Shown here: positions 21,582-55,373 of the stretch, piece by piece
How the letters are laid out: every line of letters starts with the position of its first letter
How positions within the stretch are numbered: the first letter of the stretch is position 1
Source of the DNA: Halorussus rarus
Lineage (GTDB): Archaea; Halobacteriota; Halobacteria; Halobacteriales; Haladaptataceae
DNA: 64,000 nt
Direction of reading: 5' to 3'
Assembly (NCBI RefSeq): GCF_003369835.1
Contig: NZ_QPMJ01000002.1
Span: forward strand, 1 to 64,000
Program-made: the position numbers and the translations under genes
Notes under the pieces: model-generated
What the model was told of the DNA's origin: nothing
Seen by the model: only the letters and a program-made list of their open reading frames with translations
The model's database searches: none

Positions 21582-22604
21582 TCAGCGCAGCTTCTGGTAG
21601 ACGCTCGACAGCGCGTTGGTGACCCGGGTCCCCTTCTGGATCGAGTAGTACGACCGGAGCTCGGGGCCGAACTTGGCCTTGTAGCCGCAGAGGCGCTCCT
21701 CGTTTGCGCCCACCAGGTCGTAATTCTCGACCCCGCGGTCCATCGCGTCGGTCATGATCGCCCAGTCGACCAGGTCGTTGACAGGGAGGTCCCGGTCGTG
21801 CTTGGCGCCGCCCTGCCACCGGTAGACCGTGTCGCCGAACTCCAGCGCGACCATCCCGCCCGCGAACTCGCCGTCGATCTCGCAAGCGTAGGGCCGGACC
21901 GCGCCGTCGGGGAGCCCCCGGTAGAGGTCGGTCACGAAGTCGGCGGTCACCCCGTAACTCTCGTCCTGCTCGTCGTGGCGCGACCGGACCTGCGAGATGA
22001 TCGCGGCGATCTCGTCGGGGCCGCCCTCGTACACCCGGTAGTCGCCGTCGGTCCGGATGTTGTTCCGGGCGTCGCTCGAGAACGACATCAGCACCTCGTC
22101 CTCGCCGGGCGTGAGGTCGACCGAGTAGGTGTGGCGCACGTCGACGTCGAAGTCGGCCCACTCGAAGGGGCGGACGTCCCGGTAGTCCGGGACGGGCCGG
22201 ACCTGCGTGAACCTGGGGCCGAGCCGAGCGTCGATCCAGTCGAGACACCCCCGGACGAACCGCTTGTTCCGGCGCTCGCGCTTGCGGCGCTTGAGCTTCC
22301 GGTGGTTCAGCAGCGCAGGCCCGAGGTACGACACCCAGAGGCCGGGCGCGGGCGAGAACGCCATCGTCATCCCGCCCTTCCGCTTCTCGAAGACGGGGAA
22401 GACGCCGACCGGCTCCTGGCCCTTGTACCCCACCAGCGGGTGGATCCGGGCGTCGGCGTGGTCGGCCTGGACTTCGAGGGACTCCCCGTAGTGGAAGACC
22501 CCCGCCTGGGGGGACCGCTCGACCAGGTCGTTCCAGTCGTGGTGGTCGAACTCCGTCGCGCGTCCGATTCTGATGCCGTCGTTTTCGATGATTGTCACGC
22601 TCAT
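21582..22604 (-). CDS. FemAB/GNAT-like transferase (lipid II-type aminoacyltransferase fold)
   Basis: Predicted 340-residue cytosolic protein. It has the layout of the GNAT-type PF13480 family related to FemAB: an N-terminal half with GYKGQEPVGVFPVFEK, and a C-terminal half with FSSDARNNIR, EIDGEFAGGMVALEFGDTVYRWQGGAK, and YDLVGANEERLCGYKAKFGPEL. The closing blocks are nearly shared with a paralog at 33979-35067 (YDLMGANTERLCRYKAKFGADL). Members act in exopolysaccharide and cell-surface gene clusters, probably adding acyl or aminoacyl groups; the donor is not known. It overlaps the upstream phosphatase-like gene by one base (TAATG). Confidence 0.85.
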   Translation of the reverse strand: MSVTIIENDGIRIGRATEFDHHDWNDLVERSPQAGVFHYGESLEVQADHADARIHPLVGYKGQEPVGVFPVFEKRKGGMTMAFSPAPGLWVSYLGPALLNHRKLKRRKRERRNKRFVRGCLDWIDARLGPRFTQVRPVPDYRDVRPFEWADFDVDVRHTYSVDLTPGEDEVLMSFSSDARNNIRTDGDYRVYEGGPDEIAAIISQVRSRHDEQDESYGVTADFVTDLYRGLPDGAVRPYACEIDGEFAGGMVALEFGDTVYRWQGGAKHDRDLPVNDLVDWAIMTDAMDRGVENYDLVGANEERLCGYKAKFGPELRSYYSIQKGTRVTNALSSVYQKLR

Positions 22605-33978: not shown

Positions 33979-35067
33979 ATGAGAGTCGAGCAACTCGAAC
34001 TCGAAGAGTGGGAGTCGGCGCTGCCGAGCGACGGATTCGAAGTGTTCCACCTGCCCGAGGCCCTGGAGGTGCTGGACCGCCACGCCGACGCCGAGATGCA
34101 GTTGTTCGGCGGGTTCAAGGGCCAGCAGCCAATCGCGCTCCTGCCGGTCTTCGTCCAGCAGAAGTCGGTCGGCACCGCGGTCACCTCGCCGCCGCCGGGC
34201 ATGGGCGTCCCCCGGCTCGGGCCGATCCTGATGCCGACCAGCCCGAAGCGCCGCAAGCAGGAGAAGGTCAACAACGAGTTCACCGAGAAAGTGCTCCAGC
34301 GGGTCGGCACCGACCTGGGCCTCGACCGGCGGCTCGCGGCGGCCGGCGTCGAGTCGCCGACGGCCGAGCGCGTGCTCGACCACCTCGACGTCGATTCCCG
34401 GCTGACGCTGTTCCGGATGGAGTGCAACGCGGCCTACGGCGACCCCCGACCGTACGCCTGGGGCAACCTCCAGGTCGAGCCCAACTTCACCTACTTCCTC
34501 GACGTCGAGGGCCGGAGCGCCGAGGAGGTCCGCAAGTCGTTCTCGAAGAGCCTCCGTCGGGATATCCGCGACGCCGAGGAGCTCGACGTGACCGTCGAGA
34601 CCGAGGGAGTTGAGGGCGCCCGCGCAGTGTACGAGGCGACCCAGCGGCGGTACGCCGAGCAGGACGAACCGTTCTCGCTGACGTGGTCGTACGTCCGGGA
34701 TCTGTTCGAGGCCCTCGCGGCGGACGACCGGGCGCGGGCCTACGTCGCCCGCGACGCCGACGGCGAGTACCTCTCGGGCATCACCGCCCTCTACTCGAAC
34801 GACCACGCCTACTTCTGGCAGGGCGGCGCGAAGGCCATCTACGAGGGCACCGCGGTCAACAGCCTCATCCACTGGCGACTTGTCGAGGACCTCATCGAGG
34901 AGCCGCCGGTCGAGTCGGTCACCGAGTACGACCTGATGGGCGCCAACACCGAGCGGCTCTGCCGCTACAAGGCCAAGTTCGGCGCCGATCTGGTGCCCTA
35001 CTACGTCGTGGAGTCGCCCGGCGCGGCGATGAACGTCGCCAAGCGGGCGTACAAGCTGGTCCAGTAG
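33979..35067 (+). CDS. FemAB/GNAT-like transferase, second paralog
   Basis: Predicted 362-residue protein, paralog of 21582-22604. It shares GGFKGQQPIALLPVF near the start, FSKSLRRDIRDAEE in the middle, and YFWQGGAKAIYEGTAVNSLIHW followed by YDLMGANTERLCRYKAKFG at the end. The N-terminal half differs more. It probably transfers an acyl or aminoacyl group to a surface-glycan precursor (inference). Likely transcribed from its own promoter as well as by read-through. Confidence 0.87.
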   Translation: MRVEQLELEEWESALPSDGFEVFHLPEALEVLDRHADAEMQLFGGFKGQQPIALLPVFVQQKSVGTAVTSPPPGMGVPRLGPILMPTSPKRRKQEKVNNEFTEKVLQRVGTDLGLDRRLAAAGVESPTAERVLDHLDVDSRLTLFRMECNAAYGDPRPYAWGNLQVEPNFTYFLDVEGRSAEEVRKSFSKSLRRDIRDAEELDVTVETEGVEGARAVYEATQRRYAEQDEPFSLTWSYVRDLFEALAADDRARAYVARDADGEYLSGITALYSNDHAYFWQGGAKAIYEGTAVNSLIHWRLVEDLIEEPPVESVTEYDLMGANTERLCRYKAKFGADLVPYYVVESPGAAMNVAKRAYKLVQ

Positions 35068-51743: not shown

Positions 51744-51821
51744 AAACCCGCGATTACCGTGCAGAACGCTCCTGAACGGTCGGCCCGATTTACTCGCCGA
51801 CGCTTCGATAGCCACGATACG

Positions 51822-52772
51822 ATGGGTTCTGTCGTACTCTCCCTCGACGCCGAACTCGCGTGGGGGTTCCACGACTACGAGACGATGCCAGACGACCGGG
51901 TCGGGGAGGCCCGCGAATCGTGGCTCCGACTGCTCGAACTGTTCGACGACTACGGCGTGCCGGCGACGTGGGCTGTCGTCGGCCACCTGCTGCTCGACTC
52001 CTGCGACGGGGAGCACGCCGACCACCCCGCGGCCGAGGACGGCTGGTTCGAGCGCGACCCCGGCACCTGGGAGAGCCGGGACGACCAGTGGTACGGCGAG
52101 CAACTGGTCGACGCGATAGCGGACGCCGACGCCGATCACGAGCTGGGCAGCCACACCTTCTCGCACGTCGTGATGGACGGGGCCTCCCGGGAGGTCGCGT
52201 CGGCCGAGATCCGCGAGTGCGTCGAACTCGCCGAGAAGCGCGGGGACTCGCTCGACTCGGTGGTGTTCCCCCGGAACTACGTGGGCCACCGCGACGTGCT
52301 GGCGGCCTACGGCGTCAAGTGCTACCGCGGCAACCAGCCCCGGCGGTGGTACGACCGGGGGCTCGCCGGGTCGGCCGCCAAGCTCCTCGGGTGGCCGACC
52401 AAGGCGATCTCGCCCACGCTCGTCACGCCCGAGAAGGACGAGTACGGACTGGTGAACGTCCCGGCCTCGCTCTACCTGTTCTGCTTCGAGGGCCGGGCCC
52501 GGTCGGCCGTCGAGCGCGTGGCCGGCGACCCCATCGTCACCATGGCCAAGCGCGGCATCGACCGCGCCAGCGCCGAGCAGGGCGTGTTCCACATGTGGCT
52601 CCACCCGAACAACCTGACCGAGGAGCGGGACTTCCGGCGGATGGAGGCCATCCTCGAACACCTCGCGGAGGTTCGGGACACCACCCCGCTGACGGTCCGG
52701 ACGATGGGCTCCATCGCGGCGGACTTCAAGGACGACGAGCCGCTGCCGCGCGAACCGATCGGTCCGCGGTAG
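51822..52772 (+). CDS. Polysaccharide deacetylase (NodB-like), second in window
   Basis: Predicted 316-residue protein. NodB features: SVVLSLDAELAWGF at the start (metal Asp and Glu), VPATWAVVGHLLLD, the metal-binding HELGSHTFSHVVMD, and VVFPRNYVGHRDVL. The late FHMWLHPNNL carries the His of the final motif. It lacks a signal peptide and is probably cytosolic or peripheral, acting on N-acetylated glycan intermediates. The ATG at 51822 follows a GATTTACTC TATA-like element about 35 bp upstream. Confidence 0.87.
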   Translation: MGSVVLSLDAELAWGFHDYETMPDDRVGEARESWLRLLELFDDYGVPATWAVVGHLLLDSCDGEHADHPAAEDGWFERDPGTWESRDDQWYGEQLVDAIADADADHELGSHTFSHVVMDGASREVASAEIRECVELAEKRGDSLDSVVFPRNYVGHRDVLAAYGVKCYRGNQPRRWYDRGLAGSAAKLLGWPTKAISPTLVTPEKDEYGLVNVPASLYLFCFEGRARSAVERVAGDPIVTMAKRGIDRASAEQGVFHMWLHPNNLTEERDFRRMEAILEHLAEVRDTTPLTVRTMGSIAADFKDDEPLPREPIGPR

Positions 52773-52902
52773 GGCGAGAGTCGGATCGCCTCGTTCGCAT
52801 CCGCGGATTCGGACCTCTTCCTCCTCGACTCCGGCCGTCTCGCCGCTTCCCGCCGTAGCTGTCGCTCGGCGATAAAGCGCCTCGCAGGAGAACGGCGGGA
52901 TG

Positions 52903-52987
52903 TGGAAGGGGCGGGAGTCGAACCACGCGAAGCCTGAAAGGCTGCCACCGGTGTACCGGTGGTGCTCTCCCACTGAGCTACCCTTCC
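52903..52987 (-). tRNA. tRNA-like gene, atypical; amino acid not assignable
   Basis: The minus strand folds with a perfect 7-bp acceptor stem (GGAAGGG / CCCTTCC, discriminator A at 52903), a 4-bp D stem GCTC/GAGC with an 7-nt AGTGGGA loop, and a canonical T-loop TTCGACT. The T stem is perfect only if one T is bulged (GCG-T-GG / CCCGC). The middle arm is CCACC / GGTGG with an 8-nt loop that gives no convincing anticodon after a U33. A second hairpin AGCC/GGCT stands where a class II variable arm would be. Length is 85 nt. It could be a class II-like tRNA with indels, a pseudogene, or a tRNA-like RNA. Confidence 0.55.
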
Positions 52988-53012: not shown

Positions 53013-53022
53013 CCTTTGTTGT
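53013..53022 (-). promoter_or_regulatory. RTAACAAAG-like element (site 12)
   Basis: The minus strand reads ACAACAAAGG, 26 bp upstream of the tRNA-like 5' end at 52987, the standard TATA distance for an archaeal tRNA gene. One base differs from the consensus. Confidence 0.45.
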
Positions 53023-53066
53023 GTCGTTCGTGAACGCCAGCATTCGGTGCCTCCATCTCGGAGCGG

Positions 53067-55373
53067 TCACCGTCTCGCGGTCTCGTCGTTGTCGCGAGTG
53101 TCGACCCGAGAGAACTCGAAGCGGGCGCCGCCCGCTTCGCCCTCGGTCACCTCGACCGACCAGCCGTGGGCGTCGGCGATGGAGTCCACGATGGCGAGGC
53201 CGAACCCGGTGCCGTCCTCGTCGGTCGTGAACCCGTGGTCGAAGACCTCCTCGCGCGCGTCCGGTGGGATTCCGGGGCCGTCATCCGCGACGTAGAACCC
53301 CGTCCTGTCGTCGAGGACGCCGACCGCGACCCGCGACAGCGAGTCGTCGCGTTCCGCGGCGTCATCAGCTTTCGGCTGATTGCTTGTGGAGCTGTGCTCC
53401 ACAGCGTTCCGGAACAGGTTCTCCAGCAGTTCCCGGAACCGGGCCTCGTCGGCCTCGACCGCCGCGTCGTCGGTCACGGCCAGGCTCGCGTCGCCGGTGT
53501 CGACCGTCGCCCACGCCTCCTCGGCGGTAGCCGAGAGCGCGACCAGCTGCGGGTCGTCGACGACCTGGCCCCGCCGGGCCAGCGCGAGCAGGTTCTCGAC
53601 CAGCCCGTCCATCCGGTCGAGCGACCGGCCGATGGGGGCGAGGTGGTCGCTCTCGCACTCCTCGGCGAGCAGTTCGAACCGGCCGAGCGCGACGTTGAGG
53701 GGGTTGCGGAGGTCGTGGCTCACGACGCTCGCGAACTCCTCTAAGCGCTCGTTCTGGCGGGTGAGCTGGCGCTCGCGCTCCTTCTGCTCGGTGATGTCGA
53801 CGTAGATGGCGAACGCCTCCGACTCCTCGCCGGCCGCGGATGCGGTGTGGAGCAGGAAGTCCCGCGCGCCGTCACGGGTCATGCGGCTGACTTCCTCGCC
53901 CTCGATGCGCCGGCCCCGGCTGACCCGCTCGTTGAGCGACGCGCCCTCGCGCTCGCGGTCCGGCGGCAGGATGTAGTCGTCCACCGAGTCGCCGACGATG
54001 CCGTCCCGCTCCCAGCCGAACACGTCCTCGAAGGCCGGGTTCACCGACCGGCAGACCGCGTCGAGGTCGTCGATCTCGTAGCGGACCACGGCGTTCGGCA
54101 CGTTCTCGAACAGCGCGGCGAACCGGTCGCGCTCGGCCCGGAGTTCGGTCTCGGTCCGGATCCGCGCCAGCGCCTCCGAGACGTGCGCCGCCAGGAGTTC
54201 GGCCAGTTCGCGGTCGTCCTCGTCGAACCCGTCCGGCTCCTTCGAGACGGCCTGGAACACCGCGAAGTCGCCGATCGGGACGGACAGCGCCGACCGGTAC
54301 TCGCTCTCCGCCGGGACTACGTCGGTCTCGCGCAGGTCACGGACGAGCGACGACTCGCCCTCCCGGTACGCCCGGGCCGCGAGGTTGCCCTCGGTCTCGA
54401 CCGGCGTCACCTCGTAGTAGCCGTCGGTCGAGAGCACCTTCGAGACGGCCTTCGTTACGAGGACGCCGTCCTCGTGGGCGTCGACGGTCGAGAGGTCGAA
54501 CGCCAGGATGTCCTCGGCGGTCTCGATGGCGAGGTCGTAGACGGCCTGCTCGGTCTCGCAGGCGACCGCCCTGGCCGCGACGTCGTGGAGCGCCTCGATC
54601 TTCCGCTTGGCGTCGCGGAGTTCGGACTCCGCCTCGCGGCGCTCGGTGACGTTCCGGAAGTACACCGACAGGCCGTCCTCGGCGGGATAGACCCGGACCT
54701 CGAGCCACGTTCCGGGCCGAAGCAGCGACTCGGCCTCGACGGTGACCGGCTCCTGGGTTTCGAACGCCTTGCGGTAGGCCGCCATGAACGGCCCGCCGTC
54801 GTCGGTGTCGAACGCCTCGCGGATGTCCTCGCCGACGAGGTCGTCCGGGTCCCGACCCAGGAAGTCGGCCGCCCGCTCGTTGACGTAGCGGAACCGCCAG
54901 TCGTCGTCGAGGCCGAAGAACGCGTCGGTGATGCGCTCGAAGATGCGCCGTATCTGGCGGTCGGCCCGGGCGGCCTCGCGCTCGGCGCGGTACTGGGCCA
55001 CCGCGTTCTCGACCCGGTTGGCCAGCACCGCGTACTGGTCGGTGCCCGTCTCCTTCTGGAGGTAGTCGGTCACCCCCGCAGAGATGGCCTCGCTGGCGAT
55101 CTCCTCGCTTCCCTTCCCGGTGAACAGCACGAACGGCAGGTCGGGGTCGACCGCCCGGACCTCGTCGAGGAACTCGAGCCCGTCCGTCTCGGGCATCTCG
55201 TAGTCGCTGACCACGCAGTCGACCGCGCCGTCGGTGACGTGGACCAGCGCCTCGGTCGGATCGGTCTCGACGACCGTCTCGATGGCGTCGCTCGCGCGCT
55301 CGAGGTACGTCGCGGTCAGGTCCGCGATGGCCGAGTCGTCGTCCACCAGCAGGACGCGGATGGCGCTGTCCAT
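53067..55373 (-). CDS. Hybrid sensor histidine kinase: REC-PAS-GAF-PAS-HisKA-HATPase
   Basis: Predicted 768-residue soluble kinase. Order: receiver domain (residues 1-120; VLLVDDDSAI, phospho-Asp in VVSDYEMPETDG), PAS (~140-250), GAF-like (~265-420, SVPIGDFAVFQAVS), second PAS (~430-545), HisKA with VVSHDLRNPLNVAL, and HATPase (NLFRNAVEH N-box, DDGPGIPPDAREEVFDHG and GTGFGLAIV). Between the N-box and the next strand a ~20-residue loop (STSNQPKADDAAERDDS) is encoded in part by palindromic DNA. No output regulator is adjacent; the signal sensed is unknown. Confidence 0.92.
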   Translation of the reverse strand: MDSAIRVLLVDDDSAIADLTATYLERASDAIETVVETDPTEALVHVTDGAVDCVVSDYEMPETDGLEFLDEVRAVDPDLPFVLFTGKGSEEIASEAISAGVTDYLQKETGTDQYAVLANRVENAVAQYRAEREAARADRQIRRIFERITDAFFGLDDDWRFRYVNERAADFLGRDPDDLVGEDIREAFDTDDGGPFMAAYRKAFETQEPVTVEAESLLRPGTWLEVRVYPAEDGLSVYFRNVTERREAESELRDAKRKIEALHDVAARAVACETEQAVYDLAIETAEDILAFDLSTVDAHEDGVLVTKAVSKVLSTDGYYEVTPVETEGNLAARAYREGESSLVRDLRETDVVPAESEYRSALSVPIGDFAVFQAVSKEPDGFDEDDRELAELLAAHVSEALARIRTETELRAERDRFAALFENVPNAVVRYEIDDLDAVCRSVNPAFEDVFGWERDGIVGDSVDDYILPPDREREGASLNERVSRGRRIEGEEVSRMTRDGARDFLLHTASAAGEESEAFAIYVDITEQKERERQLTRQNERLEEFASVVSHDLRNPLNVALGRFELLAEECESDHLAPIGRSLDRMDGLVENLLALARRGQVVDDPQLVALSATAEEAWATVDTGDASLAVTDDAAVEADEARFRELLENLFRNAVEHSSTSNQPKADDAAERDDSLSRVAVGVLDDRTGFYVADDGPGIPPDAREEVFDHGFTTDEDGTGFGLAIVDSIADAHGWSVEVTEGEAGGARFEFSRVDTRDNDETARR
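53364..53403. repeat. Paired palindromes inside the sensor kinase gene
   Basis: Two adjacent hairpins within the HATPase coding region: arms ATCAGC/GCTGAT with a 5-nt loop (53364-53380) and arms TGTGGAGC/GCTCCACA with a TGT loop (53385-53403). Both sit in one flexible loop and keep the frame. The layout is like the pair in sdhA but with different sequence. Confidence 0.65.

Follow-up and report, generated by a model that had tools for sequence, protein, structure and literature searches.

The 85-nt gene that runs from 52987 to 52903 on the minus strand of the window (the whole 64,000-nt stretch of DNA analysed here) very probably specifies a conserved tRNA-like RNA that does not decode. Because the code-reading part of the molecule is replaced by a variable hairpin, its job almost certainly lies outside protein synthesis and is almost certainly one that has not been described previously. 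Judged from the sequences, it is on balance probably a stand-alone non-coding RNA of tRNA origin that no longer serves translation and that selection maintains in many Halobacteriales, an estimate that blends the class of the RNA with the amino-acid donor mechanism proposed below.

ARAGORN called the element tRNA-??? at 52902-52987 and gave it no isotype, rather than a normal one with a good score. The Rfam model RF00005 matched all 85 nt (52903-52987, minus strand) at 42.0 bits with an E value of 1.2e-7, exceeding the gathering threshold of 29, and no Rfam family beyond this general tRNA model matched the interval. The fast mode of Rfam applied to the whole window missed the element. In the minimum free energy fold the acceptor, D and middle stems have 7, 4 and 7 bp, the variable arm forms a hairpin, and a single base bulges from the T stem; the energy of this fold is -41.7 kcal/mol (z = -3.64), and none of 200 shuffled sequences folded as well. 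From 5' to 3' the RNA reads GGAAGGG UA GCUC AGUGGGA GAGC A CCACCGGUACACCGGUGG C AGCCUUUCAGGCU UC GCG[U]GG UUCGACU CCCGC CCCUUCC A, and its parts are as follows.

52903-52987, minus strand: tRNA-like RNA gene without an anticodon, 85 nt (ARAGORN tRNA-???; Rfam RF00005, 42 bits; homologues)
52981-52987, minus strand: 5' strand of the acceptor stem, GGAAGGG, positions 1-7 (identical in 52 of the 53 aligned sequences)
52964-52978, minus strand: D arm GCUC-AGUGGGA-GAGC, with A14, G15, G18, G19 and A21 kept (alignment)
52945-52962, minus strand: hairpin CCACCGGUACACCGGUGG replacing the anticodon arm, with no conserved anticodon (length and sequence vary among homologues; the stem covaries)
52931-52943, minus strand: variable-arm hairpin AGCC(UUUCA)GGCU, followed by unpaired UC (52930-52929) as in tRNA-Ser (fold; layout of host tRNA-Ser)
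52911-52928, minus strand: T arm GCG[U]GG-UUCGACU-CCCGC (few positions vary, the rest are invariant)
52925, minus strand: bulged U of the T stem, conserved; in family f8 the bulge is a C and lies at another position (alignment)
52904-52910, minus strand: 3' strand of the acceptor stem, CCCUUCC (alignment)
52903, minus strand: discriminator base, A in the window copy (G in 58, A in 15 and C in 1 of 74 homologues)

The original prediction of a tRNA-like structure at this site, which left the strand unstated, is borne out by the ARAGORN call, the RF00005 match and the fold. Its near-canonical acceptor stem, D stem and T loop reappear and are nearly invariant in homologues, and the one-base bulge of the T stem and the extra hairpin in the variable region are both found in the fold. 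The prediction also described a palindromic middle arm with an 8-nt loop; this can be drawn with a 5-bp stem (CCACC-GGUACACC-GGUGG), but for this copy both the computed fold and the relatives speak for 7 bp and a 4-nt loop.

The collected set of homologues comprises 74 distinct sequences, and the alignment and covariance model were built from 53 sequences. A DNA search matched 47 of 99 relatives, including nearly all of the host's family. At a threshold of E <= 1e-6, the covariance model matched 162 of the 293 Halobacteriales genomes sampled; nine weak matches were read individually and seven of them, being ordinary sub-threshold tRNAs or a second tRNA-like type (TLS2, described below), were removed, which left approximately 155. 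The usual copy number is one per genome. Named records with homologues belong to Halorussus, Haladaptatus, Halomicrococcus, Halogranum, Halobium, Halegenticoccus and Halorientalis. The model matches fall in families f1, f4, f5, f7, f8 and f15, to which the DNA search adds one in f17, and no copy was accepted with the covariance model among the sampled genomes of f6, f10, f11 and f13. Model matches outside the order reached at most 52 bits; two of them were read, and both are ordinary tRNAs. In two Halorussus species (G001 and G013) no copy was found by the covariance model and none was seen beside the conserved deacetylase gene, and thus the RNA is dispensable in some species.

A viral or plasmid origin was considered and rejected, as no match occurred in phages or viral contigs and only one on a plasmid. 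This plasmid copy (NZ_CP019069.1, 58771-58860, Halorientalis sp. IM1011) exists besides a chromosomal one. Two genomes (G049 and G085) carry two copies each, one after sdhA and one in a glycan cluster, with differing middle arms.

The acceptor stem deviates at a single base in one of the 53 aligned sequences. U8, A14, G15, G18, G19, A21, C48 and most T-loop positions are invariant or nearly so in alignment A1, as in the elbow of decoding tRNAs, and the L-shaped elbow should therefore form. The uninterrupted 5-bp T stem of a decoding tRNA is not present, since every aligned sequence has a single bulged base there; the position of the bulge moved once, from GCG[U]GG to GUGG[C]G in f8, and the bulge never vanished in the collected set. 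Folding of six representatives gave the tRNA-like body with the bulge, with energy z values from -1.65 to -4.33. Two divergent copies (L205 and L206) retain the acceptor and T half with a degenerate D arm, and the discriminator of L206 is U. Among the other tRNAs found in the host genome, none begins with GGA or shares this acceptor.

The middle arm is the fastest-evolving part of the molecule and differs by genus. Total homologue length ranges from 78 to 106 nt, the middle hairpins differ in length and sequence, and several are capped by UUCG-like tetraloops. The middle stem covaries, with double changes at 4 of its pairs in f8 (0 of 500 shuffles) and covariation at 3 pairs in f1 (3 of 500 shuffles). 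The 74 homologues share neither U33 nor an anticodon, and their middle loops vary in length and sequence rather than keeping to the 7 nt of a decoding tRNA, in agreement with the predicted lack of a readable anticodon. ARAGORN called 33 of the 74, with many unrelated anticodons or none; the labels given include Glu, Arg, Lys, Gly and others, and some "extra" haloarchaeal tRNAs in databases may consequently be this anticodon-less RNA. The Ser-type variable arm is present in f1, f8 and part of f7, and is not formed in f4, f15, part of f5 and part of f7.

The surroundings of the gene in the window include the following features.

53014-53023, minus strand: TATA-like promoter element CACAACAAAG, approximately 27-36 nt upstream of the 5' end (A/T peak in 74 homologues)
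53067-55373, minus strand: response-regulator/PAS/histidine-kinase gene, upstream on the same strand in the Halorussus context (ORF, synteny)
51758-52771, plus strand: polysaccharide deacetylase gene, convergent, in the f1 context (ORF, synteny)

An A/T peak at -35 to -28 recurs across the 74 homologues, with CCATAACAAAG at the promoter position in most Haladaptatus and several Halorussus, which makes the previously proposed promoter-like element plausible. The base after the discriminator (N74) is a pyrimidine in all 74 copies, as it is in 30 of 30 host tRNAs checked. With this pyrimidine and the A/T peak, the copies look like independently transcribed genes that are processed as tRNAs. The deacetylase and the sensor kinase are neighbours as described in the prediction, and its placement of the gene in a glycan/motility interval is true of this lineage; the interval gives no clue to function, as other families have the gene after sdhA. 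In f4, f5, f7 and f15 it commonly lies downstream of sdhA, often directly and on the same strand, in f8 it adjoins genes read as NMD3-like, Trm5-like and helicase, and in Haladaptatus it lies within a glycan cluster. Since the neighbours change between families, they do not define the function.

These data bear on several explanations that leave the RNA without an amino-acid donor role. The original prediction had offered a recently decayed tRNA beside maintenance as an RNA, and the missing readable anticodon and the mismatch to a standard T stem would fit decay. Neither relaxed conservation nor a normal tRNA at orthologous loci was seen among the relatives compared; they retain the form without an anticodon, and those in Halorussus retain it at this very locus. 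With this form recurring across several families, and with covarying stems, a conserved promoter signal and usually one copy per genome, recent decay is refuted, the probability of a pseudogene is negligible, and there is strong support for maintenance as an RNA. It is extremely unlikely that the RNA decodes through an unusual anticodon loop or after removal of a hidden intron. The window copy, if only 5 bp are paired, would expose an 8-nt loop containing UAC, but neither an anticodon nor U33 is conserved, and 4-nt loops such as that of L027 (CCACC-UUCG-GGUGG) leave no room for an anticodon or an intron, so that decoding is refuted for the short forms. The frequent position after sdhA on the same strand could suit a t-element, a signal directing tRNase Z or RNase P to cut a neighbouring transcript, and Haloferax volcanii, likewise a haloarchaeon, offers a precedent in a tRNA-like element that lies ahead of 5S rRNA and signals cleavage by tRNase Z, as cited in PMC4326828 (Hoelzle et al., 2012). 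Such a role is decidedly improbable here: the window contains no 5S rRNA gene match, the RNA has its own promoter signal, and its neighbours change between families while its body remains constant. The promoter signal and the unrelated loci set the RNA apart from the 5S-upstream t-element alone, the one covered by that citation. It is also improbable that the tRNA body is a scaffold presenting the middle hairpin as a lineage-specific small regulatory RNA. The fast, genus-specific evolution of the middle arm would be expected of such an RNA, but many middle arms are minimal and their tetraloop caps make them look structural, and the sequence constraint lies on the body.

The mechanism that we tentatively prefer is that of an amino-acid donor. 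The RNA would be transcribed from its own A/T-rich promoter, trimmed and CCA-tailed like a tRNA, and folded into an L shape whose upper half (acceptor and T arm) would be recognised by a partner. Aminoacylation may fall to a synthetase whose recognition does not involve the anticodon; for copies with a Ser-like variable arm the best candidate is SerRS. The T-stem bulge would keep the charged RNA off aEF1A, so that the amino acid would go to a non-ribosomal acceptor. EF-Tu/EF1A has a preference for charged tRNA. The bulge is always kept and yet movable, which suggests selection against a regular T stem, and it is from this selection and the preference of EF1A for charged tRNA that we infer the donor model; the bulge itself suggests weak EF-Tu/EF1A binding. 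A donor mechanism barred from aEF1A by the bulge is plausible but falls short of an even chance, and a dedicated aminoacyl carrier for a non-ribosomal reaction throughout the order, barred from the ribosome by both the loss of the anticodon and the bulge, is a more tentative proposal. Against the donor model, the discriminator is variable (G, A and C, with U in L206), unusually so for an RNA that a synthetase charges; the D arms of L205 and L206 are degenerate; the Ser-like variable arm is absent in several families; the shift of the bulge is a single event; and no partner enzyme tracks the RNA. Taken alone, an aminoacylation-independent tRNA mimic is doubtful, and it is nearly as likely as the donor mechanism. 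By occupying a protein that binds the upper half of tRNA, be it a synthetase, RNase P, a regulator or an enzyme that modifies tRNA, the mimic would tune that protein's activity. Strict conservation only in the acceptor/T half, a varying discriminator and middle arm, a D arm that can degenerate and the failure to find a charging partner all favour it. An uncharged RNA need not avoid EF1A, and the mimic must therefore explain the conserved bulge otherwise, as a specific contact, even though its position moved.

The donor model can be compared with known tRNAs that act outside translation. The pseudo-tRNA tRNA-Other of Bacillus cereus is found off polysomes, and its deletion alters other physiology (PMC3399842). 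The haloarchaeal RNA would likewise be a tRNA-like gene kept outside translation; tRNA-Other, however, carries an anticodon for Trp and in some Bacilli borders a genomic island, whereas the haloarchaeal RNA is anticodon-less, has a T-stem bulge and is spread through an archaeal order. Weakened T-stem pairs are believed to let the non-proteinogenic tRNA-Gly of Staphylococcus aureus evade EF-Tu (PMC4052509), and this tRNA shares with the donor model T-stem features thought to weaken EF-Tu binding and an amino acid destined for non-ribosomal use. It differs in that the S. aureus molecules are anticodon-bearing glycine isoacceptors with changed T-stem pairs and G18/G19, while the haloarchaeal RNA is anticodon-less, keeps G18/G19 and has an inserted base. 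Haloarchaeal tRNA-Ser resembles the RNA in having a variable-arm hairpin that UC separates from the T stem and in G73, which most copies have (58 of 74) and the window copy, with A, does not; the RNA differs in the lack of an anticodon, another acceptor, the T-stem bulge and a variable arm that is unformed in some families. The known non-decoding tRNAs compared keep an anticodon and belong to particular bacteria. Literature searches, with subscription papers outside their scope, returned no published description of the RNA. An anticodon-less tRNA kept in roughly half of an archaeal order would constitute a new RNA family; it would be a sign that archaea have either an aminoacyl-tRNA-dependent reaction not yet known or a regulator that mimics tRNA.

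The acceptor of tRNA-Pyl starts with GGAA and ends with UUCC-G73. The RNA acceptor also starts with GGAA and usually ends with UUCC-G73, but the RNA has no CUA anticodon, and a search with PF01409 for the PylRS-like partner suggested by this likeness yielded nothing PylRS-like in the 26 genomes examined. The PF01409 matches were PheS, weak nearby matches taken for PheT, and one weak 23-bit match in G082. Duplication of SerRS was rejected likewise, since 25 of the 26 genomes have one true SerRS and a second occurs only in G027, a Haladaptatus genome (full-length SerRS-like gene at C4:124646-125884). A FemX-like transferase, suggested by the Haladaptatus glycan cluster, occurs in RNA-negative genomes and is absent in the RNA-positive G046. 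Thus, among the three protein families compared (PylRS-like, SerRS and FemX-like), no partner tracks the RNA. Two genes related to the FemX-like transferase lie in the glycan region of the window (33979-35064 and 21585-22553).

The decoding tRNA set of the host genome is near complete; tRNA-Trp is not among the matches, presumably through an intron. Outside the window, a truncated tRNA-Arg(UCG) copy (C1:836521-836591) lies approximately 5.7 kb from the intact gene (C1:830748-830822) on the same strand, a pair that resembles what an integrated element would leave. The second tRNA-like type, TLS2, has no clear anticodon and a regular T stem, and was observed in L201 (1501-1585), L202, L204 and L208 and also in L243. 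Its sequence is GAAAGGG...CCCUUUCG in most, with GAACGGG in L208. In L201, L202 and L204 an unusual tRNA-Gly-like gene follows it in tandem, a few nucleotides downstream.
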